Assembly: GCF_003234445.2 (NCBI RefSeq)
Contig: NZ_CP126269.1
Location: 3,534,001-3,598,000 of the forward strand
From: Curtobacterium sp. MCLR17_036
GTDB lineage: Bacteria > Actinomycetota > Actinomycetes > Actinomycetales > Microbacteriaceae
Direction of reading: 5' to 3'
Length of the DNA: 64,000 nucleotides
This document shows, one piece after another, positions 18,205-45,508 of the stretch. Under the pieces are notes generated by a model, which saw only the letters and a program-made list of their open reading frames with translations, was not told the origin of the DNA and ran no database searches. The position numbers and the translations under genes are program-made. How positions within the stretch are numbered: the stretch's first letter is position 1; every line of letters starts with the position of its first letter.

Positions 18205-19102
18205 CGGCAGCGCTGCCGGAGTGCTGCGTGTGGTGGACCGTGGCGGTGTTCGGGATGGTGCCGTCCGAGAGCTTCTCGGACGAGATCCAGAGCGCCTCGG
18301 GCAGGGTGTCGACCCCGGCGCGGACGTCCTCGGCCGAGCGGAGCTTGGCGATCTTGTGGATCATCGAGCCGAAGCCGACCTTCGCGACGATGTCCGCGGC
18401 CGACAGGATGACCTGCATCCAGGTGATGACGGCGCCGCCGTGGCCCCAGCCCTGCAGGCCGAAGACGATCGGGTAGGCCAGCCACGTGACGATGAGCAGG
18501 ATGCCGGTGTTGCGGAGCGTCCCCGCCGCCTCGGTGCCCCGGAGGTCGCGGCCGCCCTTGACGACGACGTAGACCACGAGCACGTACAGGACGACCATGA
18601 AGATGCCGGAGATGATGCCCCAGAGCCACAGGGCGCCGGTGTTCGTGCCCGAGTCGATGACGACGCCGCCGATGAAGCCGGTGCTGATCATCAGGAACGC
18701 GGCGGCGATGCCGACGGCGCGCAGGCGGCGGGCCGCGGCGCCGACGAGGGTCGCGACGGCGAGGAGCTCGATGACGAGCAGCGGGACGGTGACGGTCCAG
18801 TCGAAGTACCGCGGGGCCCACGACAGGATCGCGTTGGCGTTCGGGACCCACGAGTCGCCCTTGCGCTCGTAGCCGAGCGCGAACTCGATGACCAGCAGCA
18901 CGTAGGACAGGAAGGCGATGCCGGTGATGCACATGCCGGCGTAGACGCCGGACCGGAACCGGCCGGTGATCTCGTTCGTCGACACCCACGACTTCACGAA
19001 GAACGCGAAGAGGGCGAGGCCGGCGACGGAGAGTGCGTAGACGATGATCGAGTGCTCGGCGAGCGACAGGGTCGCGTTCCACGGAGCGAGTGCATCGGGC
19101 AT
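18182..19102 (-). CDS. Type-1 rhodopsin, DTE-type light-driven proton pump
   Basis: A 306-residue seven-helix microbial rhodopsin. Helix C reads RYFDWTVTVPLLVIE, giving acceptor Asp101, Thr105 and donor Glu112: the DTE motif of proteorhodopsin and xanthorhodopsin-like outward proton pumps. The retinal lysine is Lys241 in SAADIVAKVGFG, with counter-ion Asp237. Leu109 occupies the spectral tuning position and suggests green absorption. The helix B histidine that pairs with the acceptor in proteorhodopsin appears as Ser66 (GIAFLSY). Gly162 in LWGIISG aligns with the glycine that leaves room for a carotenoid antenna in xanthorhodopsin. The C-terminal tail of about 55 residues is soluble. ATG at 19102 has GGAAGGACC upstream. 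Confidence 0.95.
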   Translation of the reverse strand: MPDALAPWNATLSLAEHSIIVYALSVAGLALFAFFVKSWVSTNEITGRFRSGVYAGMCITGIAFLSYVLLVIEFALGYERKGDSWVPNANAILSWAPRYFDWTVTVPLLVIELLAVATLVGAAARRLRAVGIAAAFLMISTGFIGGVVIDSGTNTGALWLWGIISGIFMVVLYVLVVYVVVKGGRDLRGTEAAGTLRNTGILLIVTWLAYPIVFGLQGWGHGGAVITWMQVILSAADIVAKVGFGSMIHKIAKLRSAEDVRAGVDTLPEALWISSEKLSDGTIPNTATVHHTQHSGSAAGEHLGRH

Positions 19103-22699: not shown

Positions 22700-22728
22700 T
22701 GCTTGCAGCGGCCGACGGGACCACGGAC

Positions 22729-22770
22729 GGACGGGAGGCGCGGTGCCAGCTGGCACCGGGCCTCCCGTCC
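22729..22770. terminator. Hairpin repeat 4
   Basis: Arms GGACGGGAGGC (22729-22739) and GCCTCCCGTCC (22760-22770), plus a perfect inner palindrome CGGTGCCAG/CTGGCACCG. Only one position of the 42 bases fails to pair. It lies just beyond the stop of the truncated sigma factor gene (22780). Confidence 0.7.
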
Positions 22771-22779
22771 GCCGGGTGG

Positions 22780-23184
22780 TCACGATCGCGACCCGGTCGC
22801 CGATCGGGGGCGGTCGTCCACCGGGGTGACGCGCAGGGCGACGCTGGCGTCCTCGAGGCGCTCGGGCACGGCGACCCGGGACATCGCCCGGTCCGCCCGC
22901 CGCTGCGAGCGCCAGTGCCGGTGCAGCAGGTTCGACGCGATGTCGAACAGCCACGGCAGCGGCTCCTGCCGGTCCGGGTCGAACGACCCCCACCGGACGA
23001 GCGCCGTCACGAACGTCTCGCCGAGGATGTCCTCGGCGCTCTGCAGGTCGGTCCGACGCGCGAGGTAGAGCAGGATGCGTCGACCGTGCTCGTCGAACAG
23101 TCGACCGAGCTCCGCGGCTCCTGGTGGGGGGGGGTTCTCGGTGGTCACAGTTGGTGTTGCGCGGTCCTGGGTGGAGAGTTCCAT
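22780..23184 (-). pseudogene. ECF sigma factor, region 4 missing
   Basis: A 134-residue frame that contains a good sigma-70 region 2 (LGRLFDEHGRRILLYLARRT, AEDILGETFVTALVRWGSFD, PWLFDIASNLLHRHWRSQRR). It then stops after about 30 non-conserved residues, with no region 4, the part that binds the -35 element. Normal ECF factors are about 170-200 residues. The truncation falls 10 bases from hairpin repeat 4, which may mark the rearrangement. ATG at 23184 is tentative. It is probably non-functional, though a region-2-only protein cannot be excluded. Confidence 0.65.
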
Positions 23185-29593: not shown

Positions 29594-30358
29594 ATGCGAG
29601 TCGGGTTCATCGGTCTCGGCGAGGCCGGGTCCATCTACGCGGCGGCCGTCGTCGCCGCCGGTCACGAGGTCCGGGGCTTCGACCCCGCCCCCGCACCGGC
29701 TCCGGACGGCGTCGAGCGGCTCGGCTCCGTCGGCGAGGTCGTCGCCGCCAGCGAGCTGACGATCGTCCTGACCGGAGCCGCCCTCAGCCGCTCGATCGCG
29801 GAGGACGCCGCGCGGGCGATCACCCCCGGCGCGGTCTACGCGGACTTCACGACCGCCTCGCCCGAGGACATGGTCACCGCGGAGCAGGGCATCGTCGCGG
29901 CCGGTGGTCGGTTCGCGGACGTCGCGATCCTCGGCCCGGTACCGCTCAAGGGCGCCGCGACGGAGACGATCGTGTCCGGCGGGGCAGCGGACGTCGTCGG
30001 GGAGCTGCTCACCTCGCTCGGGTCCGACGTCGAGCACGTCGACGGCCCGGCCGGTACCGCGACCTCGCGGAAGCTGCTGCGGAGCGTGCTCATGAAGAGC
30101 CTGGCGACCGTCGTCGTCGAGGCACTCGAGGCCGGCCGCGCCGCGGGCTGCGAGGACTGGGTGCACGCGCAGATCGCGGCGCAGCTCTCCGGGGACGCCG
30201 ACGCGAAGATCGAGCGGTACGAGTCGGGCAGCCGGAAGCACGCCGTGCGACGGGCGCACGAGATGCAGTCCGTGTCGGAGTACCTCGAGCGCCTCGGCGT
30301 GCGCCCCGAGATGTCGGCCGCGTCGCGCCGGGTGCTCGAGCGGCTCGCCGCCGCGTAG
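29594..30358 (+). CDS. NAD-binding 6-phosphogluconate dehydrogenase-like oxidoreductase
   Basis: A 254-residue beta-hydroxyacid dehydrogenase relative. The Rossmann motif is RVGFIGLGEAGSIYA, and the substrate-type motif DVAILGPVPLKGA replaces the usual DAPVSGG. A helical C-terminal half containing SRKLLRSVLMKSLATVVVEALEAGRAAG resembles DUF1932, with the catalytic Lys expected in RKLLRS. It probably oxidises or reduces the hydroxyacid or keto acid related to the RraA reaction. It ends just before hairpin repeat 6. Confidence 0.82.
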   Translation: MRVGFIGLGEAGSIYAAAVVAAGHEVRGFDPAPAPAPDGVERLGSVGEVVAASELTIVLTGAALSRSIAEDAARAITPGAVYADFTTASPEDMVTAEQGIVAAGGRFADVAILGPVPLKGAATETIVSGGAADVVGELLTSLGSDVEHVDGPAGTATSRKLLRSVLMKSLATVVVEALEAGRAAGCEDWVHAQIAAQLSGDADAKIERYESGSRKHAVRRAHEMQSVSEYLERLGVRPEMSAASRRVLERLAAA

Positions 30359-30437
30359 CGGCCAGCGCCGGCGACGAGTAGCGGGTCCCCTCCGGCGCGG
30401 TCACCGCGTGCGGCGCGGCGTTCGCGACGTGCCGGGA

Positions 30438-30485
30438 GGCGGACGGGAGGCGCGGGTCGGGCCCGACCCGCGCCTCCCGTCCGCC
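30438..30485. terminator. Hairpin repeat 6 (perfect 48-bp palindrome)
   Basis: The 24-base left half GGCGGACGGGAGGCGCGGGT(CGGG) is exactly complementary to the right half at 30462-30485, with no mismatch and no loop. It lies between convergent genes ending at 30358 and 30492, so it can terminate both. It is the best-preserved member of the hairpin family. Confidence 0.8.
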
Positions 30486-35092: not shown

Positions 35093-35243
35093 CGCGCGGT
35101 CGTGGGCGGGCGGTGTCACGACCCGGCTCGACTCCGCCGCCGACGGCGACGACACCCGTGGTCGGCGTGCTGATCGGGCACGTCGAGCCGTCCGGCGAGC
35201 GATCCGCTCTCGGACGTGTTGGCCCGAGACCGGATCGGCCTGG

Positions 35244-35828
35244 TCAGCGGTCGGGGTGAGCTTGGCGGTCGATGCAGCGGTAGACGGTTGCTCGTCCGAT
35301 GCCGAACAGTTCGGCGAGTTCGGCGACCGAGTGCGTGCCGGCTTCGTGCACCTCAAGGAGATGTCGTTGCTGCGCGGCACTGAGCTTGGGCTGTCGGCCG
35401 CGCAGGTGCCCCTTGGCCTTGGCGATCTGCATCCCCTCGCGCGTCCGGGCTCGAATCAGGTCTGATTCGAACTCAGCCACCATCGCGAGGACGTTGAACA
35501 GCAGCCGGCCTACGGGGTCGTTGGGATCGTGGACTGAGCCCCCGATGTTGAGCTTGACGTTCTTCGCGGTGAGCTCGTCGACGATGTCCTTCGCATCGCG
35601 GAGGCTCCTGGCTGATCGATCCAGCTTCGCGATCACCAGGGTGTCGCCGTCACGGCAGGAAGCGAGCGCTTCGCGGAGACCGGGTCGTGAACGATTTGTG
35701 CCGGTCAAGCCGTGGTCGGTGTGGATGTTGGTCGGAAGGACTCCAAGCCGTTCAAGCGCGATGCGCTGGGCGGTGAGGTCTTGTTCGTAGGTTGAGACGC
35801 GGGCGTACCCGATGAGGAGAGCATTCAT
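35244..35828 (-). CDS. Serine recombinase (resolvase/invertase)
   Basis: A 194-residue small serine recombinase. The catalytic Ser is in IGYARVSTYEQD (residue 12), with the Arg-rich active-site block IAKLDRSARSLRDAKDIV, the E-helix region and the C-terminal helix-turn-helix (HSVAELAELFGIGRATVYRCI). Its length fits TniR/Tn3-type resolvases and Hin-type invertases. It lies at the left edge of the accessory region, about 14 kb from the tnsABC-tniQ operon, and might be the resolvase of that element. That link is inference. I saw no obvious res site beside it. Confidence 0.9.
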   Translation of the reverse strand: MNALLIGYARVSTYEQDLTAQRIALERLGVLPTNIHTDHGLTGTNRSRPGLREALASCRDGDTLVIAKLDRSARSLRDAKDIVDELTAKNVKLNIGGSVHDPNDPVGRLLFNVLAMVAEFESDLIRARTREGMQIAKAKGHLRGRQPKLSAAQQRHLLEVHEAGTHSVAELAELFGIGRATVYRCIDRQAHPDR

Positions 35829-35881
35829 GGCGCGAGGATCGGCTTGCTGCGCCGTGCTTGCGTCGTCTCACTTCCGATCCT

Positions 35882-36373
35882 TCAACGGCCGCGGAGGATT
35901 CGTTGAGTCACTGCGGCTAAGTCTTCACCCGGGAGGATCGGCTGCTCCGTCACGAACGGGAGCGGGTCCCATCCGCGGAACCAAGCGCGCATTTGGTCCT
36001 GGCTGACCTCGGACGCCAGCGAACGTCCCGCGTGCCGCCGCAGGGTCTCCTCGAATGTGAGGTCAAAGGCATAGAAGCGGGCATCGGTCGACATGCTCGA
36101 AATCCGATCCAGCATCGTTGCGTAGCCGGCGGACTGGAAGATCCCTTCTAAAACGACGTCATGGCCGGCCCAGAGGCAGTGTTTCGCTGCGACTTCGAGG
36201 AGCGCGGCGTGCTCCATGCCGTCAGCGTGACCGGCGTCCGCGCGCTCCTTGAAGATCGTCCGCCGGAAGTGGTCTTGACTGAGGACCGCGGTGGGCCACC
36301 CCAGCTCCTGTTGCAGCTGCGCCGCGAGGGTCGACTTGCCAGAGCCAGAGGCACCGCGGATCACGATGAGCAC
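35882..36373 (-). CDS. P-loop kinase (AAA_33/zeta-like)
   Basis: A 163-residue small kinase. Walker A is GASGSGKST near the N-terminus, followed by SQDHFRRTIFKERAD, EGIFQSAGYATMLD and a lid region ARFYAFDLTFEETLRRHAGR. It resembles nucleoside/gluconate kinases and zeta-toxin-type kinases; the substrate is unknown. GTG at 36373 is chosen, with a second GTG three codons later. It sits alone beside palindrome a, like the other small genes of the cassette-like region. Confidence 0.75.
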   Translation of the reverse strand: MLIVIRGASGSGKSTLAAQLQQELGWPTAVLSQDHFRRTIFKERADAGHADGMEHAALLEVAAKHCLWAGHDVVLEGIFQSAGYATMLDRISSMSTDARFYAFDLTFEETLRRHAGRSLASEVSQDQMRAWFRGWDPLPFVTEQPILPGEDLAAVTQRILRGR

Positions 36374-36407
36374 GACAAGCAGGCTAGGACGTCGCCGGTG
36401 TGCGCGC

Positions 36408-36437
36408 TGTCTCGATAGCCGATCGGCTATTGAGACA
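36408..36437. repeat. Palindrome a of the TAGNCGATCGNCTA family
   Basis: A 30-bp palindrome TGTCTC-G-ATAGCCGATCGGCTAT-T-GAGACA, perfect except for one symmetric mismatch. On the minus strand its TAG (36429-36427) is the stop codon of the MarR fragment. Other family members lie at 37243, 37406, 43392, 44045, 44706 and 45154. Confidence 0.8.
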
Positions 36438-36596
36438 TCGGCGCGAGGCGTTTCAGGAGCTGTACCAGGCTTTCTCGCTCTTGTGCACTGAGTTTCATCA
36501 GCAGCGCTTCTTCCGTGGCGAGGTGCTCGGGAAGGACGCTGTCCTGGATGCAAGCCGCTGGGATGGCAGTCGTCCTGCTCTGCGTCACCACGGCCG
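36427..36596 (-). pseudogene. MarR regulator 3' fragment
   Basis: An open frame whose last residues MKLSAQERESLVQLLKRLAP look like the C-terminal helix of MarR proteins. It has no start and no DNA-binding domain; it begins right at the stop codon of the GNAT gene (36597). It ends in MSQ followed by the TAG of palindrome a. I read it as the remnant of a truncated MarR gene. Confidence 0.5.
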
Positions 36597-37160
36597 TCAG
36601 GCGGCGGGCGCGTCCTGCTCTGCGCCGTGACCGGCAGTAAGCACCATCCCGTACAAGGCCACATCGGCTCGCTCCGGGCTCAGCGCAAGAGCGGAGCGAA
36701 GAGTGCCCTCGTGCATGAAGCCCAGGCGCTCCGCTACTGCTCGACTACGGGTGTTCAAAACCGCCGTTCGAATCTCGACTCGCGCTAAGCCTTCTGCGCG
36801 CGCCTCATCGATCAGTGCTTCGCATGCCCGGGTCACCACTCCCTGTCCCTCATGCGCTGCAGCGATCCAGAATCCCAACTCTCCGATGCCGGCATACCGG
36901 TCGAGGCGTAGCGATGCGCTCCCGACGGGCTCGTCGCCACAGGTGATCATCAAGGGGAGACTCGTGCCCTGCTCGTAAAGCGCTATCGCGAACGAGGCGT
37001 ATGCCTCAGCAGATTCGAGGGTCTGCTCCGGAGCAGCCCAAGGTTCCCAGGCTCGTAGGCGCGACAGCTCGTTGAGGGTCAGATCATGCATCACTTCGAC
37101 CGTCGAACCATCACGCAGAGCAAGGCCGTATCCATCGCCGAGGTCGTGAGGCAAACGCAT
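36597..37160 (-). CDS. GNAT family acetyltransferase (RimJ/RimL-like)
   Basis: A 187-residue acetyltransferase of the ribosomal-protein-acetylase type. Motif A region is GELGFWIAAAHEGQGVVTRACEALIDEA (acetyl-CoA binding), followed by RVEIRTAVLNTRSRAVAERLGFMHEGTLR. Substrate unknown; many stand-alone members inactivate small molecules. ATG at 37160. It lies between palindromes a and b. Confidence 0.88.
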   Translation of the reverse strand: MRLPHDLGDGYGLALRDGSTVEVMHDLTLNELSRLRAWEPWAAPEQTLESAEAYASFAIALYEQGTSLPLMITCGDEPVGSASLRLDRYAGIGELGFWIAAAHEGQGVVTRACEALIDEARAEGLARVEIRTAVLNTRSRAVAERLGFMHEGTLRSALALSPERADVALYGMVLTAGHGAEQDAPAA

Positions 37161-37242
37161 GAAATGACGTTACTGCAACTCCACTCACCGAGCCGAGGAA
37201 CGACTCCTGTGACGGGTCGCCCGGCCTCCACCGCTCGCCAGC

Positions 37243-37268
37243 GTCCGATAGCCGATCGGCTACCGGAC
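37243..37268. repeat. Palindrome b
   Basis: A 26-bp palindrome with arms GTCCGATAGCC and GGCTACCGGAC around GATC, one symmetric mismatch. Core TAGCCGATCGGCTA. It lies between the GNAT gene and the 36-residue membrane peptide gene. Confidence 0.8.
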
Positions 37269-37285
37269 ACTCCTAAGCTCGGGCT

Positions 37286-37396
37286 ATGGGGATGAACAAG
37301 GATCAGCGGCTGGCCGTCATCATCGGGAGCACGGTGGCAATAGTCATGGGACTCGGGATCGCCATCTCAGGAGGACTTGGCCTGTTCGGTTTGTGA
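37286..37396 (+). CDS. Tiny membrane peptide in a cassette
   Basis: A 36-residue ORF starting MGMNKDQRLAVIIGSTVAIV with a single hydrophobic helix, ending at a TGA 9 bases before palindrome c. It is flanked by palindromes b and c and so has the cassette layout of its larger neighbours. No clear ribosome site; the family is not recognised. Confidence 0.4.
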   Translation: MGMNKDQRLAVIIGSTVAIVMGLGIAISGGLGLFGL

Positions 37397-37405
37397 TCGA
37401 ACTAC

Positions 37406-37431
37406 CTCGCAGACCGATCGGCTACCGAGAC
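37406..37431. repeat. Palindrome c (one arm degenerate)
   Basis: The right half CGATCGGCTACCGAGAC matches the family; the left half CTCGCAGAC is degenerate. The broken oxidoreductase gene begins directly after it. Confidence 0.65.
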
Positions 37432-37434
37432 AGG

Positions 37435-37802
37435 GCGAGAGGCGACGCGATACGGTGCGTCCTCGCCGCCGTGGCCGAGCCCGTCGACGTGCTGCTCAAC
37501 CTCGCGCCGATCGAGCCGGACGAGTTCGCGGCCGCGGTCGCCCTCGTCCGGGACGGCGGGGTCGTCGTCAGCACGACGGCGTTCATGGCCACCCCGGACG
37601 ACGCCTCTCGTGGAGTCCGAGCGGCGACCGTCTTCGTCCGGCCTGACCGGGACCGCCTCCGGCAGCTCGTCGCCCTCGTCGACGACGGCTCGCTGACGGT
37701 CGAGGTCACGCGGCGGATCCCGCTCGCCGAGTCTCGGCGCTGCACGCCGAAGGGGCGGCTGGCCGGGTCGCCGGCAAGGTCATCGTGCTCCCCGCGATGT
37801 GA
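37435..37802 (+). pseudogene. Zinc-type quinone oxidoreductase 3' fragment, frameshifted
   Basis: The frame reads AEPVDVLLNLAPIEPDEFAA and GGVVVSTTAFMATPDDASRG, then VRLDRDRLR-like strands and VTRRIPLAE, the C-terminal third of an NADPH:quinone reductase/alcohol dehydrogenase. The expected end (ALHAEGAAGRVAGKVIVLPA, then TGA at 37800-37802) continues in another frame after a one-base loss near 37731-37737. The 5' two thirds are missing; homology starts just after palindrome c. It is therefore both truncated and frameshifted. Confidence 0.75.
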
Positions 37803-37806
37803 ACTT

Positions 37807-37839
37807 TAAGACGGTCGCGGCAAGGCCGCGACCGTCTTA
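37807..37839. terminator. Intrinsic terminator hairpin
   Basis: A 15-bp perfect stem TAAGACGGTCGCGGC / GCCGCGACCGTCTTA with loop AAG, 4 bases after the pseudogene's stop. It is probably the original terminator of the oxidoreductase gene. Confidence 0.8.
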
Positions 37840-37959
37840 GCATTTGCGCTCGGCAGCGCTGCGGGCGAGGAGACTGACGGTCTCCTGCGCGGTGGCGCAC
37901 TCAGCTCTGGCCGGCCGATCAGCTTTCGATGCGTGCACATGCCAAAAGCGACGGCGGTG

Positions 37960-38541
37960 TCACGCGCGTACCGCCGAGACCGCCCGGTCGTAGAGCTCGC
38001 TGAGGTCGTACTGACCATCCCCTCGCACCCATTCCCGAGAGGCAGCATCGAGGCAGGTAAGCGCCGCAGCCACGATGGCGTGCGCGCGGAGGTCGCGGTC
38101 GTCCGTGTCCGCGAGACGAGCGGCAATCAGGGGCACGAACATTCCCTGCCAACGGAGCCGCTTCTCGATGTGGCGAGCCAGCAGCGACGGAGTGTCGAAG
38201 AGCATGCGGCCGAGGGCGAGCATGGATGAGCGGTCGAGAGTCAGTATTTCACCGGCCTCAGTGAACGCTGCGCGGATCGCAGCCCACGGTTCTTCGTCCT
38301 CCGGGCGCACCTTCAGCGCTTCGGCGATAACGGCACCCCTGGCGACCAGGTCGCCGAGGACCACGTCCTCCTTCGTGCCGAAGTAACGGAAGAACGACCG
38401 CCGCGAGACCCCGACGCTCTCGAGAATTTGATCCACCGTTGTCGCCTCGAACCCCTGCCGGAGGAACAGGTCGACCGCCGTGCGGGTGATCTCGTCGCGC
38501 ACAGCCGTTCGCTGGCGGTCCCATGCTGTCGTTTCGGTCAT
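37960..38541 (-). CDS. TetR/AcrR family regulator
   Basis: A 193-residue TetR protein with helix-turn-helix ITRTAVDLFLRQGFEATTVDQILESVGVSRRSFFRYFGTKE and a MftR-like C-terminal helix pattern ending CLDAASREWVRGDG. ATG at 38541. It is divergent from the SDR at 38599, with a 31-bp operator between the two, so it very likely represses both. Confidence 0.9.
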   Translation of the reverse strand: MTETTAWDRQRTAVRDEITRTAVDLFLRQGFEATTVDQILESVGVSRRSFFRYFGTKEDVVLGDLVARGAVIAEALKVRPEDEEPWAAIRAAFTEAGEILTLDRSSMLALGRMLFDTPSLLARHIEKRLRWQGMFVPLIAARLADTDDRDLRAHAIVAAALTCLDAASREWVRGDGQYDLSELYDRAVSAVRA

Positions 38542-38555
38542 CTAACCATTCTATG

Positions 38556-38586
38556 TGCCTTCTTGGCACTGCGTGCCAAGTAGGCA
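38556..38586. promoter_or_regulatory. 31-bp TetR operator
   Basis: Inverted repeat with core CTTGGCAC-TGC-GTGCCAAG and outer TGCCT/AGGCA arms, each offset by one unpaired T. It occupies most of the 57-bp gap between the divergent starts 38541 and 38599, so bound repressor would cover both promoters. Confidence 0.85.
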
Positions 38587-38598
38587 TAAAGTGCCAGG

Positions 38599-39405
38599 GT
38601 GGCCTACGACCTCTCGACCCAGACGATCCTGATCACCGGAGCGAGCTCCGGGATCGGTCATCGGTTCGCTGTCGACCTCACCGCCCGGGGCGCCGCTGTC
38701 GTCCTCGTTGCGCGGCGCCGCGACCGCCTGGAGCAGCTTGCCGCCGACCTCCGCCGTGACCACGGCAGCACCGTAGAAATCATGGCTGCTGATCTGACAT
38801 CGCCGACGGCGGGTCTTGACCTGCGGGCCGCGGTCGGGGAGCGAGGGATGCGCATTACCGGCCTCGTCAACAACGCCGGCTTCGGCACGTTCGGCCCGTT
38901 CGTCGACGAGGAAGCAGAACGACTCGAGGCCGAGGTCGCCCTCGACGTGATGGCACCCGTTCGGCTCACCTCCGCGTTCCTGCCTGATCTACTTGCCGCT
39001 GAGCGCGGCTTGCTGATCAACGTCGCGAGCATGGCTGCGTACAGCCCGAGTCCGCGGATGGCCGTCTACGGTGCGGCGAAGGCGTTCGTGCTGAGCTTCA
39101 CCGAATCCCTGTGGGCCGAGCTCCGTGGCACGGGTATCACTGTCTTCGCGTTGTCGCCCGGTGCCACGAGCACCGAGTTCAACAGCGTCGTCGGGACAGA
39201 GGACGCGACCGCCGGGGCGGCGATGCGATCCGCCGGGGACGTCGTAGCCACCGCACTGGCGCACCTCGACTCGCGAAACCCGGGACCGAGCGTGATCGAC
39301 GGGAGGGCCAACCGCATCGCGGCCAGCACGATGCGGCTACTCAGTCGTCGTCGGACCGTCGCCCTCATGCATCGGGTGACCGACCCCGTGCGCCGCCATC
39401 GATAG
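38599..39405 (+). CDS. SDR family oxidoreductase
   Basis: A 268-residue SDR of the DltE/YqjQ-like group: TGASSGIG, LVARRRDRLEQLAADL (Arg-rich NADP site), NNAGFGTFG, catalytic Ser in NVASMAAYS and Tyr-Lys in AVYGAAKAF, then SPGATSTEF. The GTG start at 38599 has no ribosome site, and a possible -10 (CATAAA) lies about 10 bases upstream, so a leaderless mRNA is likely. Confidence 0.88.
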   Translation: MAYDLSTQTILITGASSGIGHRFAVDLTARGAAVVLVARRRDRLEQLAADLRRDHGSTVEIMAADLTSPTAGLDLRAAVGERGMRITGLVNNAGFGTFGPFVDEEAERLEAEVALDVMAPVRLTSAFLPDLLAAERGLLINVASMAAYSPSPRMAVYGAAKAFVLSFTESLWAELRGTGITVFALSPGATSTEFNSVVGTEDATAGAAMRSAGDVVATALAHLDSRNPGPSVIDGRANRIAASTMRLLSRRRTVALMHRVTDPVRRHR

Positions 39406-39490
39406 CCCTCTTGTCGAGCGGGGCAGCGTTCGACCGTCAACATGATCAAGGTCCCGCCACTGCCACAGGCGGCCTTCCTCGGCGCCGTCC

Positions 39491-39811
39491 TCAGGAGTGC
39501 AGGACGCGAGTTCCGGTGACGGTCGTCCGTGGGAGACGTCCGGCGCGCGAATGCCCGACCATCCCGTCCCCGTTCACGAGCACGTCGAATTCGAGATTGA
39601 GGCGCATCGGCTTGGTGATGCTCTGTGACCAGGTGACGTGCTCCCCAGTGCTCGTGTCCTCGACGCGGACATCGCGGAGCGGCACGTCTTCTCCTCTGCC
39701 TGTAGCCGCGCCGACGATGATCCCCCTATCGGCGGTGAACTGCATCCTGGCGTTAATGGTGCCGATCGGCGTTCGCATCGAGAGGTCCCAGATACCGGGG
39801 AGGGTGCTCAT
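39491..39811 (-). CDS. Hypothetical protein, lipocalin/DUF-like strand-rich
   Basis: A 106-residue, mostly beta-strand protein (LPGIWDLSMRTPIGTINARM, TWSQSITKPMRLNLEFDVLV). The opening GIWDLSMRTPIG and the later GDGMVGHSRAG resemble small fatty-acid-binding or lipocalin-like barrels that bind hydrophobic ligands, but I cannot assign a family. The ATG has AGAGGAAC upstream. It lies just downstream of the DJ-1-type gene on the same strand, probably as an operon. Confidence 0.6.
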   Translation of the reverse strand: MSTLPGIWDLSMRTPIGTINARMQFTADRGIIVGAATGRGEDVPLRDVRVEDTSTGEHVTWSQSITKPMRLNLEFDVLVNGDGMVGHSRAGRLPRTTVTGTRVLHS

Positions 39812-39840
39812 GATCAATCGTTCCTCTGGTGGTAGTGGGT

Positions 39841-40494
39841 TCAGGCGGGAAGCGGAACAGGGCCACGTGCTGACCACACGGTTCCGCGACGCTCGTACTC
39901 GAAGAGTTCCTCGACGGCGTGGGCGATACGTGGCCCGTGCATACGTTCGAGCAGGTACAGAGCGAGGTCGAGGCCAGACGTCACACCGCCGGCAGTGACG
40001 AGGTCCCCGTCGTCGACGACCCGGGCGCGAACCACAGTCGTCCCCGTGGCCTCGAGGACGTCATTGCCCATCGTGTGCGTCACGGCGGTCCGCCCTTCTA
40101 GGAGGCCGGCCATCGCGAGAGCGAGCCCACCGCCGCAGACCGTCGCGACGATTGTGTCCGGTGCCGCGAACGCCCGTCGCATCAGGCTCGGCAGGGCTGT
40201 CTCGGCCAAGCCGGCGAGGATCACGGGGATGATGCGTTCCGTGTCGGGATCGCCGTGCACCGGGCCGGAGGCCCCGGGGACGATTACAACACCGGGAGCC
40301 TCGGGCATAAGGACGTGCTTCGCCTTCAGTTGCAGTCCGCCGGTTCCGCTCGTGACCGGACCTGGTGCATCAAGCCCGACGAGACGGACGTCGATGATCC
40401 CTCCGAGCGCATCCGAACCGGCGTTGAGTACTTCGAATGGTGCGATGACGTCGAGGGGATCGAAGCCCTCGTAGAGGACGATCTGGGCGATCAC
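39841..40494 (-). CDS. DJ-1/PfpI family protein
   Basis: A 217-residue DJ-1/PfpI-fold protein. It starts IVLYEGFDPLDVIAPFEVLN, and the nucleophilic cysteine sits in the elbow ATVCGGGLALAMAGLL, followed by THTMGNDVLEATG and TAGGVTSGLDLALYLL. Relatives include isonitrile hydratases, glyoxalase-type enzymes and amidases. The GTG has GAAGGA upstream. Divergent from the GlxA-type regulator, which has the same fold in its sensor half; the pair probably forms a response unit. Confidence 0.88.
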   Translation of the reverse strand: MIAQIVLYEGFDPLDVIAPFEVLNAGSDALGGIIDVRLVGLDAPGPVTSGTGGLQLKAKHVLMPEAPGVVIVPGASGPVHGDPDTERIIPVILAGLAETALPSLMRRAFAAPDTIVATVCGGGLALAMAGLLEGRTAVTHTMGNDVLEATGTTVVRARVVDDGDLVTAGGVTSGLDLALYLLERMHGPRIAHAVEELFEYERRGTVWSARGPVPLPA

Positions 40495-40597
40495 AGCGGG
40501 TCCTTCCGGGCGGCGTATCGGGCTGACATGATGACGCTACGGAGTGACACGATTTTGCACGAGTGGCCGATGAGCCAACGTGTGCGAGGATCTCGCC

Positions 40598-41554
40598 ATG
40601 CACCGAGTGGTCGTCCTGGCGCTCCCCGACGTGATCGCTTTCGACCTCACCACTCCAGTGGAGGTCCTCGGGCGCGCGGTAGATGCCGCTGGGCTGCCGC
40701 TCTACCGCCTGCGCGTCGCCGGACCGGACTCGACCGTCCCATCGGGCCCGCTGGGCATCGCGGTCCCCTACTCCCTCGCGGAGACCGCAGCCGCTGACAC
40801 GATCATCGTCCCGGGGCGGAGCGACCCGAGCGCCCCCCTCGACGATGAGGTCCTCCATGCTCTCCGGGACGCCGCGCGACGAGGTGCCCGTATCGCGTCG
40901 ATCTGCGTTGGAGCCCTCGATCTGGCGCAGACCGGGCTGCTCGACGGCCTGCGGGCGACGACGCACTGGCGGGCGGTTGACTTGCTCGCGACCCGGCACC
41001 CCGAGGTCGAAGTCGTACCGGAGGCGCTCTACGTCGACAACGGACAGCTCCTCTGCTCGGCGGGAGCATCCGCAGGTATCGACCTCTGTCTGCACCTCGT
41101 CGACCGCGACTTCGGGGCTGGGGTCGCGGCGGACACCGCCCGGACTGCGGTGGTGCCCCTCACCAGAGAGGCTGGACAGGCCCAGTTCATCAAGGACGAC
41201 AGAGTCGGGAGCACGAGCCTGACCTCGGTCCTCGAGTGGATCGAAGCGAATGCGGCCGAGCCAATCACCGTCGCGGACATCGCCGCCATAGCCGCCGTGA
41301 GTGCCAGGACCCTCAACAGGCGATTCATCGACGAGCTACGGCTTCCCCCGTCCCGATGGCTGATCAGGGCGAGAGTGCGCATCGCTCAACAGCTTCTCGA
41401 GACTACCGATCTCTCGGTCGACCAGATCGCCGCGCGATCCGGTCTGGGCTCGCCGGCGAATCTCCGCGCACGGTTCGCAGACGTAGTCGGCACGAGCCCT
41501 GCCCGTTACCGCGCGGCCCTGACCGTCGCGGGGCGGGCCTCCGTGTCCGGATGA
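40598..41554 (+). CDS. GlxA-type AraC regulator with DJ-1-like domain
   Basis: A 318-residue protein. The DJ-1/PfpI-like sensor domain occupies residues 1-165 (VVVLALPDVIAFDLTTPVEV; elbow SICVGALDLAQTG; THWRAVDLLATRHP), and an AraC helix-turn-helix pair lies at about 215-310 (ITVADIAAIAAVSARTLNRRF; DQIAARSGLGSPANLRARFADVVGTSPARYR). ATG at 40598 is chosen. It probably regulates the divergent DJ-1 gene and its neighbour. Confidence 0.92.
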   Translation: MHRVVVLALPDVIAFDLTTPVEVLGRAVDAAGLPLYRLRVAGPDSTVPSGPLGIAVPYSLAETAAADTIIVPGRSDPSAPLDDEVLHALRDAARRGARIASICVGALDLAQTGLLDGLRATTHWRAVDLLATRHPEVEVVPEALYVDNGQLLCSAGASAGIDLCLHLVDRDFGAGVAADTARTAVVPLTREAGQAQFIKDDRVGSTSLTSVLEWIEANAAEPITVADIAAIAAVSARTLNRRFIDELRLPPSRWLIRARVRIAQQLLETTDLSVDQIAARSGLGSPANLRARFADVVGTSPARYRAALTVAGRASVSG

Positions 41555-41580
41555 CGATCCTTGAACGAGTCCGGTTAGGG

Positions 41581-41838
41581 CTACTCCTTCGCGGCTTCTC
41601 GTTTCCACTTCCGCACCGTGGTCGTCGACACTCGTGCGTCCGCCGCGACAGACCGGATCGACCCGCCAGCACGCAACGCAGCGAGGACCGCGGCCTTCCG
41701 CGCGGTGCTCGCCCTCGCGGTCCGGCGCACCTGCTGCGCCTGTACCGGATGCGCCGCGCGTTGACGTTCGTGCCGCACCACCGCGGTGGACGTTGCGATT
41801 GCGTCTGACACGGCGCCGCTGCCAGGGAACAGATCCAC
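41581..41838 (-). pseudogene. DNA methylase C-terminal remnant with HTH
   Basis: An 85-codon frame starting DLFPGSGAVSDAI, which resembles the S-adenosylmethionine-site end of phage-type DNA modification methylases. It is followed by a basic linker and a helix-turn-helix tail (RKAAVLAALRAGGSIRSVAADARVSTTTVRKWKRE). The frame stays open upstream to about 41927 but without methylase sequence, so the catalytic body is missing. The HTH tail alone could be functional. Confidence 0.45.
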
Positions 41839-41930
41839 GACCTCATCGACGGCAAGGTCAGCGCGCAGGTGGACGCATCGGCAGACAAGGCGCCGTTGAC
41901 TGCGGGGCGCAACCGGCGTAACTTGCCCCT

Positions 41931-42383
41931 ATGGAAAGTCGGGAACCGGACCAGACAGCCCTGCGCGCGTCGTTGCGTGCAGCGAAACATACGGAGACAA
42001 CTGCCGCTCAGGCGAGCAAGGCCCCGTTGTGGTTCTACGCATGCTCCGGAGTACTGCTTGCTGCCCTTAGCTTGGTCGTCAGCCTGGGCACGCCTATCTG
42101 GATTGTAGTTGGGGGCTTGGCCGCTCTCGCTGTCGGTCGCCTGCTGTACAGCATTCGGCGGTCAGCGTCCGGTTCGACTGTCGGTGGTCTCCGATCAGGA
42201 CGAGCGTCACTCTGGACGTATGCCCTGCTGCTTGTCATCCTCGGGCTCATGGTTCTCGGGCGCTTCATCACAGTCGGGTCGAGTAACTTGCTGCTACCAG
42301 TGCTCATCGCCGTCGTTGTCTTCATCGCGACCATTGCTTATGGTGCCATCTACGAACGCAGTCGAGGTCATGTCCATCGGTGA
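41931..42383 (+). CDS. Four-helix membrane protein
   Basis: A 150-residue protein with four hydrophobic segments in two pairs (WFYACSGVLLAALSLVV and TPIWIVVGGLAALAVG; LWTYALLLVILGLMVLGRFI and LLLPVLIAVVVFIATIAY) after a polar N-terminus of about 30 residues. The family is not recognised. Codon use is less GC-biased than in the left half of the window. Its 3' end overlaps a small regulator gene, so the two form a unit. Confidence 0.7.
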   Translation: MESREPDQTALRASLRAAKHTETTAAQASKAPLWFYACSGVLLAALSLVVSLGTPIWIVVGGLAALAVGRLLYSIRRSASGSTVGGLRSGRASLWTYALLLVILGLMVLGRFITVGSSNLLLPVLIAVVVFIATIAYGAIYERSRGHVHR

Positions 42384-42684
42384 AATCCTGGGTCAATTTT
42401 CCGCGGCTGACTTCAACGAAGTTATTCATGCGCCTAAGAGGCTGACAATATGTGCCTACCTCAGTGTGGTAGACACTATGGAGTTCTCCGCTCTACGGGA
42501 GATCCTCGGGCTTTCGGAGTCGGCTCTCAGCAAACATCTCGCCACGCTGAGCGCAGAGTCCTACGTGCAAGTCAGCAAGATTTCTCGCGCAGGTCGCACT
42601 CGCACGACGGTTCGGCTTACGGGGAAGGGCCGCTCGGCCTACTCGCGTCACGTGGCGGCGCTGCGCGCGCTGCTTCGCGAGTAG
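42370..42684 (+). CDS. Small winged-helix regulator (MarR/ArsR-like)
   Basis: A 104-residue winged-helix protein: HAPKRLTICAYLSVVDTMEF, recognition region LREILGLSESALSKHLATLS, and a wing KISRAGRTRTTVRLTGKGRS, ending in a helix. It matches the stand-alone transcriptional regulators of about 100 residues that are often fused to or paired with membrane proteins. ATG at 42370 has GAGG upstream and overlaps the membrane protein gene by 14 bases. Confidence 0.82.
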   Translation: MSIGEILGQFSAADFNEVIHAPKRLTICAYLSVVDTMEFSALREILGLSESALSKHLATLSAESYVQVSKISRAGRTRTTVRLTGKGRSAYSRHVAALRALLRE

Positions 42685-42700
42685 GCCGAACGGGATAGCT

Positions 42701-43210
42701 CTACGTGCCAGTGGCGCAGGAAAGGATCGTGCCTCCCACCGTGGCCGAGGTGGAAGCGATCCAAAGCACCGTGATCCCGTCGGTGGCCAGTACCGCGAGT
42801 GCCGTACCGACAACGCCAATTGCGCAGCCCAGGTTACTCAGGTCGGGGTCTGCGATCGTGCCGGCCGTTGTGAGGGAAATCGTCTGCACAAACTGACCGC
42901 TCTCGTAATACTGCTGAATCGCGGCACCCTTGCAGTCAGTGGTCTTTTCACCGATTTCCAGCGTACGGATTGATCCGTCCGAGTTGACGCAGTTGTAGTA
43001 GAACTTCCCCGCAACGTAGTTCGGGGAAGCGATAGCCTTCGTTTCAACAGCCCCCGAGCTTGCAGTGTTCACGGTAGCTGCGTCCGCTGCAACGTCCTGC
43101 TGAACGCTTTGTTCGAATGTGGCTCCCGAACTTGGCGCGGCGATAAATAAACTTCCCATCACGGTAGCAACGGACACGAGGCCCGCTGTCAATCGTCTTG
43201 AAAACATCAT
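42701..43210 (-). CDS. Secreted hydrophobic two-Cys peptide precursor, unknown
   Basis: A 169-residue exported protein. The signal peptide (SRRLTAGLVSVATVMGSLFI, cleavage near APSSGA) is followed by a polar middle (VAGKFYYNCVNSDGSIRTLE, KTTDCKG) and a strongly hydrophobic Gly/Ala/Thr/Ser-rich C-terminal segment of about 45 residues. That segment starts LSNLGCAIGVVGTALAVLAT and ends in a second Cys (GGTILSCATGT). Such a C-terminus recalls pore-forming bacteriocin-type peptides, but I recognise no family. ATG at 43210 has AAAGGA upstream. It converges on the membrane protein/regulator pair at 41931-42684. Confidence 0.6.
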   Translation of the reverse strand: MMFSRRLTAGLVSVATVMGSLFIAAPSSGATFEQSVQQDVAADAATVNTASSGAVETKAIASPNYVAGKFYYNCVNSDGSIRTLEIGEKTTDCKGAAIQQYYESGQFVQTISLTTAGTIADPDLSNLGCAIGVVGTALAVLATDGITVLWIASTSATVGGTILSCATGT

Positions 43211-43391
43211 TGTTCCTTTCGACAGTTCCAGTGGTGGTTTCTCAGTGGAACTATCGATGCTATGAGCCTTCTCAGGTGGTGTCACGACCCGTTACTCGAT
43301 CGTGACTTGAGGCGGCTGATCCACGCGACCTTGCTTCTGGGTCTTTTCGCGCACCTCCGCCCGCTGCAAGGCGAGCACCGCAAAGTCTGTC

Positions 43392-43413
43392 CCGTTAGAC
43401 GATCGTCTAACGG
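43392..43413. repeat. Palindrome g (perfect, 22 bp)
   Basis: CCGTTAGACGATCGTCTAAC then GG: a perfect palindrome with core TAGACGATCGTCTA and outer GTCC/GGAC flanks, about 80 bases upstream of the GNAT gene at 43491. Confidence 0.8.
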
Positions 43414-43490
43414 ACGCGGCATTCGTGTTCCCCGACTGGCTATTGGGGGCGCTGCTGGCGCTTGTGCGCTCAGTCGAGGAGAGTGGGCGG

Positions 43491-44054
43491 ATGCGCTCGA
43501 TCGTCACGGACAGACTGATTCTTCGTCCCTGGGAGGAAGGCGACGCCGACTTTCTGTTCGACCTCGAATCACGCTGGGAGACCGTAAGGTACTTGGGCGC
43601 TGATCCCACGCCGATGCGGAGCAAGAGCGAGGCGGTCGCCTCGATCCAGCGACGGCGGGCACTCGATCACCCGGTGCACGGGGTCTGGGCGATCGCGCTC
43701 CGAGACTCGAACGCGCTTGCGGGCAACCCCTTACTGAAGCCTGCACACCTCTCGGCCGGAGCTTCTGGTGAACGTCCCGTCGAAATCGGCTGGCACCTGC
43801 ATCCGAGCGCTCAGTCGCTCGGGTTCGCGACGGAGGCCGCAGCCGGCGCCCTCACTGACGCTGCCAGCCGTGGGCTTGCTTCCGTGCTCGCGGTCACCGA
43901 CCCGAGGAACAGTGCCTCGCACCGGGTATGCCGTCGCCTTGGATTCGCCGAGGAAGGGGTAACGAGCCGTTTCTACGACAGCCCGCAGCTCGTCTTCTCT
44001 CGTGTTCTGTCGGGGGACACACCCCCAACTCCCGCAAGCCAGACCGTCCGGTAG
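43491..44054 (+). CDS. GNAT family acetyltransferase (RimJ/RimL-like)
   Basis: A 187-residue acetyltransferase starting MRSIVTDRLILRPWEEGDADFLF. The acetyl-CoA region is PVEIGWHLHPSAQSLGFATEAAAGALTDAA and the C-terminal block is VTDPRNSASHRVCRRLGFAEEG. ATG at 43491 has GAGGAGAG upstream. Its stop codon TAG (44052-44054) belongs to palindrome d. First of three consecutive small genes with this architecture. Confidence 0.9.
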   Translation: MRSIVTDRLILRPWEEGDADFLFDLESRWETVRYLGADPTPMRSKSEAVASIQRRRALDHPVHGVWAIALRDSNALAGNPLLKPAHLSAGASGERPVEIGWHLHPSAQSLGFATEAAAGALTDAASRGLASVLAVTDPRNSASHRVCRRLGFAEEGVTSRFYDSPQLVFSRVLSGDTPPTPASQTVR

Positions 44055-44072
44055 CCGATCCGGAAACGGACG
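44045..44072. repeat. Palindrome d (imperfect), overlapping a stop codon
   Basis: Outer arms CGTCCG/CGGACG and a core TAGCCGATCCGG that is only partly symmetric. The TAG is the stop codon of the GNAT gene 43491-44054. Confidence 0.6.
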
Positions 44073-44105
44073 ATTCCGGCGACGTCGGGTGCCTAGGCTC
44101 TGCTC

Positions 44106-44708
44106 ATGGAGCAATGGGCAACCCCGAGCCTGAGTAACAGGGTGGCGCGTTTGGAACCGCTGTCCCTCGTGCACGCGGCAGACCTCGCGCGAGCAGTCTC
44201 GGTCGGCGCGCTCTGGCGAACCTGGTACACCCACATCCCAGCGCCCGAGCAGATGCACGACACCATCGAAAGCCGCCTCGCGCTCCAACGCGACGGCCGC
44301 ATGGCCCCTTGGGCTGTCATCGACGTGCGTAGCGATCGAGCGGTCGGGATGACGACCTACTGCAACCTTGACCCCGCCAACCGGCGACTCGAAAGCGGTT
44401 CTACGTGGCTCGGCAAGGAGGCCCAGCGGACCGGCCTCAACACCGCGACGAAGCTCCTGCTCCTCACGCGAGCGTTCGAGGAGCTGGGGTGCTTGGCTGT
44501 TGAGTTCCGTGCCCACTGGCACAACCACCAGTCACGTCGAGCAATCGAGGGACTTGGGGCGAAGCAAGACGGGGTACTTCGGAAGCACACCGTGTTCGAG
44601 AACGGCACGATCCGGGACACGGTGGTGTACTCCATCACCGACGACGAGTGGCCCACCGTCAAGTTCGCACTCCACGAGCGCCTTGCCACCAGCGCCGCGT
44701 CTCAGTAG
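44106..44708 (+). CDS. GNAT family acetyltransferase
   Basis: A 200-residue RimJ/RimL-type acetyltransferase: SNRVARLEPLSLVHAADLAR, GMTTYCNLDPANRRLESGSTWL, the acetyl-CoA loop KEAQRTGLNTATKLLLLTRA and FRAHWHNHQSRRAIEGLGAKQDGVLRKH. Ends in AASQ followed by the TAG of palindrome e. ATG at 44106, 51 bases after the previous stop. Confidence 0.9.
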   Translation: MEQWATPSLSNRVARLEPLSLVHAADLARAVSVGALWRTWYTHIPAPEQMHDTIESRLALQRDGRMAPWAVIDVRSDRAVGMTTYCNLDPANRRLESGSTWLGKEAQRTGLNTATKLLLLTRAFEELGCLAVEFRAHWHNHQSRRAIEGLGAKQDGVLRKHTVFENGTIRDTVVYSITDDEWPTVKFALHERLATSAASQ

Positions 44709-44719
44709 CCGATCCGTTA
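44706..44719. repeat. Palindrome e core TAGCCGATCCGTTA, overlapping a stop codon
   Basis: A variant of the 14-bp core, partly palindromic, preceded by TCTCAG like the TCTCGA of copies a and f. Its TAG terminates the GNAT gene 44106-44708. Confidence 0.55.
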
Positions 44720-44748
44720 GTGCAACAGTGGGGGGTTAGGTTCACTCC

Positions 44749-45156
44749 ATGTCCGATGACAATCTGTCGCTCACAGTGACCTCAGATGCCTCGATCACAG
44801 CGGTCTGGTTCGCACTCACCGAAGGTCGCGACAGCTGGTGGCCGGAACTCTCACTGAGGCCGGAAGTCGGCGCCGCGGTGCGTGAGACGTGGACCGAGGA
44901 CGGGCGGGAGCAGTACGCCGATGGTCACGTCACGGAAGCTGCCCCACCGAACACGCTCGGTTTCGTGTGGCAGCAGGCGGCTTGGCCTACGCCGCTGCAC
45001 GTTCGATTCGAGATCGAGCAGGCCGGCCGAGGCAGTCTCGTAACCCTGAGCGAGGATGGCTTCGCGCAGCTGACTCACGGGTCGGACGTCCGATCGGCGC
45101 ACCAGGAAGGCTGGGCGTTCCACCTCACGAACCTGCTGGCCGCAGCGTCTCGATAG
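44749..45156 (+). CDS. SRPBCC/AHSA1-type protein
   Basis: A 135-residue START-like (AHSA1) protein: LSLTVTSDASITAVWFALTE, WWPELSLRPEVGAAVRETWT, GFVWQQAAWPTPLHVRFEIE, and a long C-terminal helix GWAFHLTNLLAA. The fold binds hydrophobic ligands; function unknown. It ends AASR followed by the TAG of element f. ATG at 44749, 40 bases after the previous stop. Confidence 0.8.
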   Translation: MSDDNLSLTVTSDASITAVWFALTEGRDSWWPELSLRPEVGAAVRETWTEDGREQYADGHVTEAAPPNTLGFVWQQAAWPTPLHVRFEIEQAGRGSLVTLSEDGFAQLTHGSDVRSAHQEGWAFHLTNLLAAASR

Positions 45157-45167
45157 CCGGTCGTCCA
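45154..45167. repeat. Degenerate element f, overlapping a stop codon
   Basis: TAGCCGGTCGTCCA, preceded by GTCTCGA exactly as in palindrome a. The left half matches the family, the right half is degenerate. The TAG ends the SRPBCC gene. It is the last family member seen in the window. Confidence 0.5.
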
Positions 45168-45384
45168 GTAGACCTCCGGGTGCTTGCAGGCGGCCCCGGC
45201 TCCCTACGGCCCGAATCCGGGGCGAACCTGTCTCACATAGATGGTCCGCGAAGTCTCTCAGTTCACGTACGCCATACGAACGCCTCACGATGCACGGATT
45301 CCGAACCGTCCTCTGGTCGACGTCGCCCTTCCTACTGCCGAGAAACGTGTCGACTTCTGTGTTTCAGACTCGCTGCGTGGCAGT

Positions 45385-45508
45385 GGGACAAGTCAGCTGG
45401 CGGACGACGACAACCCCTGTCAACGTACTCACTACTTGTCGCCAATACGCCTGACGCGATTCGCAGTCAACGTGCATGTCACTCAGCTCGACCAAATAAC
45501 TTGTCGCC
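45385..45508. repeat. Clustered short repeats in a gene-free stretch
   Basis: ACTTGTCGCC occurs at 45434-45443 and 45499-45508, GTCAACGT at 45419-45426 and 45466-45473, and an inverted near-copy GGGACAAGT at 45385-45393. The whole stretch 45157-45806 contains no gene I can support. Clustered binding sites of this kind are found at the ends of Tn7-like elements, so this may be the cargo-side end of the tns element. That is inference. Confidence 0.35.

Follow-up and report, generated by a model that had tools for sequence, protein, structure and literature searches.

Gene-cassette arrays bounded by 28-bp palindromes in Curtobacterium, with a small serine recombinase as their probable engine

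Curtobacterium is a bacterium of soil and plants. Here, we analyze a stretch of 64,000 nucleotides from Curtobacterium sp. MCLR17_036 (contig NZ_CP126269.1, positions 3,534,001 to 3,598,000; henceforth termed the window and numbered from its first letter), in which small genes are separated by seven 28-bp imperfect palindromes, the sites e1 to e7, with the consensus GTCYCGNTAGCC-GATC-GGCTANCGRGAC. A gene for a small serine recombinase lies at one end of this series. The features between 35189 and 45408 are listed below; sites carry no strand, and their scores in bits refer to a matrix described in the following paragraph.

35189..35216, site s0, degenerate, 9.2 bits; its right half forms the 3' end of the recombinase unit
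35244..35828, minus strand, small serine recombinase of 194 amino acids, the candidate cassette recombinase; PF00239 (Resolvase) 7.6e-36, PF02796 (HTH_7) 8.6e-10
35864..35891, site s0', very degenerate, between the recombinase and kinase units, -7.4 bits; recognised only by aligning the upstream regions of ten relatives
35882..36373, minus strand, small P-loop kinase-like cassette gene, 163 amino acids; Pfam AAA_33 4.3e-12
36409..36436, site e1, 47.4 bits
36427..36663, minus strand, C-terminal remnant whose stop is the core TAG of e1; the translation ends LAPMSQ-stop
36597..37160, minus strand, GNAT acetyltransferase cassette gene; Pfam Acetyltransf_3 1.1e-17
37242..37269, site e2, 43.7 bits
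37286..37396, plus strand, cassette gene for a 36-amino-acid hydrophobic peptide with its own TGA stop; read from the sequence
37404..37431, site e3, 17.4 bits
43389..43416, site e4, 39.5 bits
43497..44054, plus strand, GNAT acetyltransferase cassette gene whose stop is the core TAG of e5; Pfam Acetyltransf_3 3.7e-24
44045..44072, site e5, 25.4 bits
44106..44708, plus strand, GNAT acetyltransferase cassette gene whose stop is the core TAG of e6; Pfam Acetyltransf_3 6.2e-16
44699..44726, site e6, 22.1 bits
44749..45156, plus strand, AHSA1/SRPBCC cassette gene whose stop is the core TAG of e7; Pfam AHSA1 8.2e-12
45147..45174, site e7, 23.5 bits
45161..45408, no strand, likely further unit past e7, its far end without a recognisable site and defined by alignment ends in genomes G346 and G301

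A search for the 14-bp core of the palindromes with up to two mismatches returned seven matches in the window, compared with 1.5 expected. Five of these coincide with elements proposed in an earlier, sequence-only reading of this DNA (36416, 37249 and 43396 exactly, 44706 and 45154 with two mismatches); those at 18462 and 21485 lie outside the array and appear chance-like. The elements placed earlier at 37406 and 44045 were not recovered by the core search at two mismatches. A hand-weighted 28-bp matrix of two 14-bp half-sites, built from 26 seed sites of which three are from the window, scored all seven elements at 17.4 to 47.4 bits, and the reversed window contained no match of at least 10 bits, which bears out the proposal of seven related elements with a shared core. 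Over 18 scanned sequences, 83 matches of at least 14 bits were found in the forward and two in the reversed direction. The core TAG had also been read as a stop codon, and it is one for the open reading frames (ORFs) ending at 44054, 44708 and 45156 as well as for the minus-strand remnant ending at 36427. The 'MarR' label given to the frame of this remnant is unconfirmed, since 36430-36669 has no Pfam match at E<=0.01.

Units delimited by these sites recur in other genomes. The e1-e2 unit is 98% identical in G301 and the e4-e5 unit 95% identical in G302, and in both cases the unit-facing halves of the bounding sites are alike; the outer halves are not, and unrelated DNA follows them. Copies of the peptide unit e2-e3 are present twice in G325 and also in G301, at 86-89% identity, and in several named loci, some oriented as in the window and some reversed. 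A 75% match to the kinase unit (35880-36427) in G346 ends inside e1, and the DNA following e7 matches G346 (45139-45408, 80%) and G301 (45151-45408, 77%) in alignments that both stop at 45408. When array loci were aligned to each other with blastn, 103 of 540 interior ends fell no more than 25 bp from a site centre in both loci, a distance within which 2% of positions lie on average; the pairs overlap, and these ends are not independent. Across the arrays, 233 units with a median length of 745 bp provide 34 comparable cassette ends, 23 of them with unrelated flanks (units of 120-3500 bp; outside DNA less than 45% identical). For this count, and for the stop-codon, orientation and site-centre counts below, sites of at least 15 bits were used and 15 isolated or operator-like loci were excluded (L165, L166, L177, L193, L195-L198, L209, L210, L212 and L221-L224). 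At the 23 ends, mean identity is 0.90 in the inner half-site, 0.68 in the outer half and 0.28 beyond, with a null for unrelated half-sites of 0.643 +/- 0.031 (means of 23). Since the inner half is conserved, the outer half near random and the DNA beyond unrelated, the exchange point lies near the palindrome centre, among the few bases in its middle.

From these sequence comparisons, the units are almost certainly mobile gene cassettes with a crossover near the palindrome centre. The suggestion that the array is an undescribed way of mobilising single genes and recalls integron cassettes agrees with the recurrence of exact units in unrelated contexts: single-gene, site-bounded units found in unrelated surroundings are an integron-like property. 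The other proposal of the sequence-only reading, a palindromic repeat that inserts at stop codons, was rejected because the point where homology ends lies within the palindrome and close to its centre; for the same reason, each site is best seen as the junction of two cassettes and not as an inserted element.

In the 3.64-Mb single-contig genome, the exact core has four copies, three of them in the window. A sequence model (R1), built on an alignment (A1) of 86 sites chosen from 206 sequences, for which 10 loci and sites below 17 bits had been left out beforehand, identifies 12 distinct places at E<=0.05, all in three clusters (seven in the window, two at 656-659 kb and three at 1651-1661 kb); less significant matches, up to E 2, are spread more widely over the genome. 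Given the four exact copies and the restriction of the places at E<=0.05 to three clusters, the motif does not behave as a repeat common throughout the genome without relation to genes. Neither is the same gene order kept in all relatives; both patterns had been put forward as findings that would speak against a cassette array. The third array of the source genome (L367, G000:C1:1645001-1665000) shares stretches with C. oceanosedimentum (95%), C. caseinilyticum (93%) and plasmid pC1a (80%).

This distribution also bears on a more conventional explanation, in which the sites are palindromic repeats near stop codons, such as terminators, repetitive extragenic palindrome (REP)-like elements or transcription factor operators, and the units are spread by ordinary homologous recombination. 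We consider it very improbable. It is in keeping with the frequent position of sites at gene ends and with double core copies ahead of an operon in Mycolicibacter and Mycolicibacterium that look operator-like, but not with the sharp identity change near the palindrome centre, units with unrelated DNA on both sides, the three genome clusters at E<=0.05 and recombinase genes bounded by the same half-sites. The Mycolicibacter/Mycolicibacterium copies, two cores or near-cores 23-24 bp apart (L177:713-763, L210:3984-4035, L209:5696-5747 and L165:2772-2822), stand ahead of an operon where viewed and are probably an operator unrelated to cassettes.

Of 299 genomes of the family, 14 contain the exact 14-bp palindrome and 2 the reversed pattern; in the sampled genus the palindrome is present in six of seven genomes. 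All 66 Curtobacterium genomes contain a match to the sequence model, with a weakest best E-value of 0.0017; the surroundings of these matches were viewed in some of the 66, and the loci viewed show arrays. A longer pattern identified 65 stretches in one-per-species genomes, 45 of them in Curtobacterium, three in Frondihabitans, two in Frigoribacterium and 15 elsewhere. Together with four viral contigs, these stretches make up 69 loci (531 kb), each selected by at least one exact core, with 220 sites of at least 13 bits compared with five in reversed sequence. Arrays are present, for instance, in G031, with 20 sites within about 29 kb, and in C. flaccumfaciens CP121450. Synteny between the window and the same-species genome G325 ends near 30356, and from there to 62000 only short or weak matches are found; the window array thus lies in DNA absent from G325. 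Matches of G325 to the array region comprise the two copies of the peptide unit, a GNAT-like match (69%), the oxidoreductase fragment after e3 (79%) and a few shorter ones. This truncated oxidoreductase-like fragment (37433-37809; the label is that of the sequence-only reading) stands directly after e3, and its DNA is 74-82% identical in all five compared genomes.

The composition of the sites suggests how they may be recognised. AT forms the centre of 267 of 298 distinct sites; the others have GT (20), AC (10) or CC (one) as their central dinucleotide. In 86 distinct sites, paired cells between the arms amount to 66.8% compared with 66.9% in shuffles, and arm covariation to 0.191 compared with 0.192. 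As the arms vary independently, the site would be read as two half-sites in double-stranded DNA without an attC-like fold, consistent with the earlier remark that the sites do not look like attC. The missing covariation would also follow from halves reshuffled by a central crossover. Single-strand hairpin recognition was tried as an explanation and rejected, there being no covariation signal. The consensus, written as CGTCCGATAGCC-GATC-GGCTATCGGACA, has outer parts that we take to match the ends of Tn3/gamma-delta res site I, and the array sites presumably resemble resolvase half-sites.

The same data address the possibility of a degenerate or unusual integron, with attC-like sites recognised as folded single strands by an IntI-type integrase. 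Arrays of small diverse genes with GNATs commonest (among the best 25 of 69 families), a stop codon at the cassette end in part of the cassettes, and variable but palindromic sites would suit it. Yet the 28-bp site is without RYYYAAC/GTTRRRY boxes in attC order, its arms do not covary, homology breaks near the centre and not near one end, and genes lie in both orientations, so that this explanation is hardly credible. Three Phage_integrase matches were found in the genome, none of them in the window; the integron-integrase model TIGR02249 was not run on the genomes. A published scan recovered no complete integrons in Actinobacteria (PMC9024848).

The serine recombinase at 35244, already suspected as the engine in the sequence-only reading, is the best candidate; most of its close relatives are accompanied by half-sites in fixed positions. 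Its closest solved structure is Gin invertase (3.2e-27), followed by gamma-delta and Tn3 resolvases, and its motifs ARVST and LDR..AR align with the catalytic serine and arginines of Gin and gamma-delta resolvase. In Curtobacterium, relatives are present in 10 genomes at 95-100% identity (clade 1) and in 11 at 68-71% (clade 2, one partial). In clade 1, the gene has boundaries like those of a cassette. Just upstream, a right half ending in GAGAC occupies one fixed place in 7 of 10 loci by alignment, with different DNA outside, and in five of the seven the whole site, at -63/-64, scores at least 4 bits. On the downstream side, +612 from the ATG and 27 bp past the stop, 6 of 10 loci including the window copy have a site of at least 4 bits. 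Homology ends at +612 by eye in four, most others continuing towards a site near +682, and in 3 of 10 a 12-17-bit site is found at +680/+682. For clade 2, five of the 11 Curtobacterium loci have a site of at least 4 bits at -136 to -138, and two more a similar half by eye. In G218 and G260, all six clade-2 loci begin with one right half 153 nucleotides before the GYARVS motif, with unrelated DNA beyond and whole-site scores of -0.6 to 16.8 bits. A Mycobacterium metagenome-assembled genome contains a perfect palindrome 119 bp from a related gene. Five plasmid recombinase genes were examined as well; ahead of two of them, on Clavibacter pCM1 and on an Arthrobacter plasmid, lies a site of 13-15 bits at a distance of 132-146 bp. 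On plasmid pC1a of Curtobacterium sp. C1, which has the above-mentioned 80% identical stretch in the third array of the source genome, an ASCH-domain gene lies between 27.5- and 39.4-bit sites directly beside a related recombinase. With regard to accessory sites II and III of res, conserved blocks lie between the upstream site and the recombinase gene, and array sites stand alone. The engine probably is or was a serine recombinase of the resolvase type, the one at 35244 being an example.

Several observations weigh against the exchange of cassettes by this enzyme. A recombinase at least 68% identical is found in 21 of 66 Curtobacterium genomes and is missing from the other 45, and G031, with its 20-site array in a draft of about 80 contigs, has no resolvase domain at E<=0.001; arrays without a recombinase relative would be orphan arrays or served by another enzyme. 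The upstream site of the window recombinase itself is degenerate (-7.4 bits), the fixed-place upstream site is missing at clade-1 loci L256 and L263 and clade-2 loci L269, L270, L272 and L275, the other three of the five plasmid genes have no upstream site above 0 bits, and no upstream site was found for other serine recombinases near arrays (L034, L205, L208). Many clade-2 elements are GT-centred, and GT should not pair with AT sites. The comparisons of arrays draw on overlapping loci and related genomes, and their counts are not independent. The strain-level gain or loss of one gene-plus-palindrome unit envisaged earlier was looked for among the compared loci, and no case with both neighbours kept was found; neither a recombination event nor an empty-site pair was seen in these loci. 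In the close genomes G324 and G325, much of the array is colinear, and a 10-kb inversion (L360-L366; G324:C27:214971-225024 vs G325:C37:545129-555170) has its breaks away from the sites: it ends ~40-56 bp from them, where inverted repeats of ~50 bp contain GAGCGAAGCTGC. A similar repeat is also present beside clade-2 recombinases. The inversion as such neither supports nor refutes the cassette reading.

The same mobile cassettes could also be driven by a tyrosine recombinase, either by divergent recombinase-like proteins encoded as a tandem pair next to two arrays or by XerC/XerD of the host, which would use the 28-bp site in the manner of dif. The G257 array has such a pair at one of its ends, and in the source genome a pair stands about 1.2 kb away from the second array; 7 of 10 array genomes examined have a pair match (weak in G295), compared with only 43 of 299 overall. 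Furthermore, dif too has a length of 28 bp, and strong Phage_integrase proteins are encoded in 11 of 11 genomes, with XerC/D expected among them. However, 20 further pair loci of 20 kb contain no array, with only three 10-16-bit matches among them, and the consensus of 62 distinct pair proteins lacks both the box I arginine expected after 'GL' and a conserved tyrosine. Because of these array-free loci and non-conserved catalytic residues, the tandem pair was dropped as engine and kept as a rival. Its Pfam match (17.4 bits) is under the cut-off, and flanks that vary around an almost invariant central dinucleotide are the pattern of serine recombinases. Overall, we regard a tyrosine recombinase engine as improbable. 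The tandem divergent pairs, often two adjacent genes, are found at L031:5982-9104 and L102:2013-4096.

Cassette content was scanned in 135 ORFs (at least 90 amino acids and at least 45% of the unit) from 223 units with an ORF. Among the best 25 of 69 families, GNAT is the commonest with 14 ORFs, followed by MFS (5), AAA_33 kinase-like (3) and HAD (3) as well as NUDIX, AHSA1, beta-lactamase-fold and resolvase with two each. When the longest ORF is taken as the cassette gene, a rule that puts some on the wrong strand, neighbouring genes lie on the same strand in 32 cases and on opposite strands in 23. The earlier claim that the palindromes supply the stop codon holds for a minority of cassettes, in which the core TAG terminates the main ORF (39 of 139), and fails for the rest. 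Frames of at least 100 codons are closed by 108 of 360 site TAGs compared with 575 of 3455 other TAGs, with open frames below 100 codons that run off the locus end dropped. Stop codons often fall within the site probably because genes run to the cassette end. As to selection for stop codons in the site, the counts diverge: TGA is present in 39 half-sites compared with 11.7 expected, but TAA in 22 compared with 56.2 (independent-column expectation). The half at a gene's 3' end may be better conserved, but the signal is weak (p 0.049).

As a whole, we consider it likely that the sites are cassette-array junctions exchanged at their centre by a small serine recombinase. This explanation builds on what comparison of sequences brings out, namely the units, their mobility, the near-centre breakpoint, the non-covarying arms and the half-sites around most close recombinase relatives. 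A cassette would start with the right half of one site, end with the left half of the following one, and usually carry a single small gene. A small serine recombinase (Tn3-resolvase/Gin-invertase type), acting as a dimer, would bind the two ~13-bp half-sites as double-stranded DNA, cut at the central AT and rejoin halves from different sites, such that cassettes could be excised, inserted or inverted. Since AT is its own complement, a cassette might enter in either orientation. The recombinase gene itself may travel as a cassette-like unit with its crossover half-site at a fixed upstream distance, where this half-site would occupy the place of resolution site I in resolvase modules. Cutting by this particular recombinase, chemistry at the central AT and circular intermediates are steps that we infer.

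We take the system for an equivalent of integrons and dif modules that runs on a serine recombinase; it would work as these do, although it fails the integron tests made. As in integrons, single small genes of diverse functions, many of them GNATs (best 25 of 69 families), are arrayed between recombination sites. Unlike in integrons, sites are 28 bp long with arms that do not covary, the crossover lies near the centre, genes occur in both orientations, and the recombinase gene linked to the array, itself in a cassette-like unit, encodes a small serine enzyme of the PF00239 type. Clusters of attC sites without an integrase (CALIN) also occur (PMC9024848). The sites of dif modules are likewise 28-bp inverted repeats. 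In the Xer-dependent dif modules (pdif) of Acinetobacter, adaptive genes are flanked on both sides by short sites and spread as modules (PMC6449649). These modules are tied to host dif/Xer tyrosine recombinases, whereas in Curtobacterium a serine recombinase is encoded beside some arrays.

DNA invertases (Gin, Hin, Pin) use two-half-site crossover sites with a 2-bp centre, and Gin is the solved structure closest to the window recombinase; they invert one segment, whereas here many arrayed sites accompany unit exchange between genomes. In Tn3 transposons, res site I recombines at its AT/TA dinucleotide; the hybrids that result from exchange between transposons are identical on one side and different on the other (PMC7157771). 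Many cassette ends are likewise identical on one side and different on the other. As in Tn3 TnpR/res, a small serine recombinase with Resolvase and HTH_7 domains, its catalytic residues intact by alignment, has a site upstream of its gene, but unlike in Tn3 res, isolated site-I-like copies stand in long arrays of single-gene cassettes. No such arrays were described among the matches listed in a search of open-licence PubMed Central (PMC) papers.

We lean towards the view that these arrays represent a third independent bacterial gene-cassette system, actinobacterial 'serine integrons', in which 28-bp palindromes, recognised as double-stranded DNA, would let a resolvase-type recombinase that may itself be cassette-borne shuffle single genes in both orientations. 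If true, serine integrons would play in Actinobacteria the part that integrons play in Proteobacteria, throughout the genus Curtobacterium and also in Frondihabitans and Frigoribacterium. A genus-wide cassette system with another recombinase chemistry and another site would imply that single-gene cassette arrays evolved more than once. The arrays would further constitute a reservoir of small adaptive genes that software seeking attC and IntI is not expected to report, and might provide a cassette tool that works in two orientations.

Two short repeats lie elsewhere in the window. One at 30403-30485, with several matches in G325, sits at the border where synteny with this genome ends. The other, a short interspersed repeat at 22704-22799 unrelated to the cassette sites, occurs on both strands and has dozens of copies in G325.

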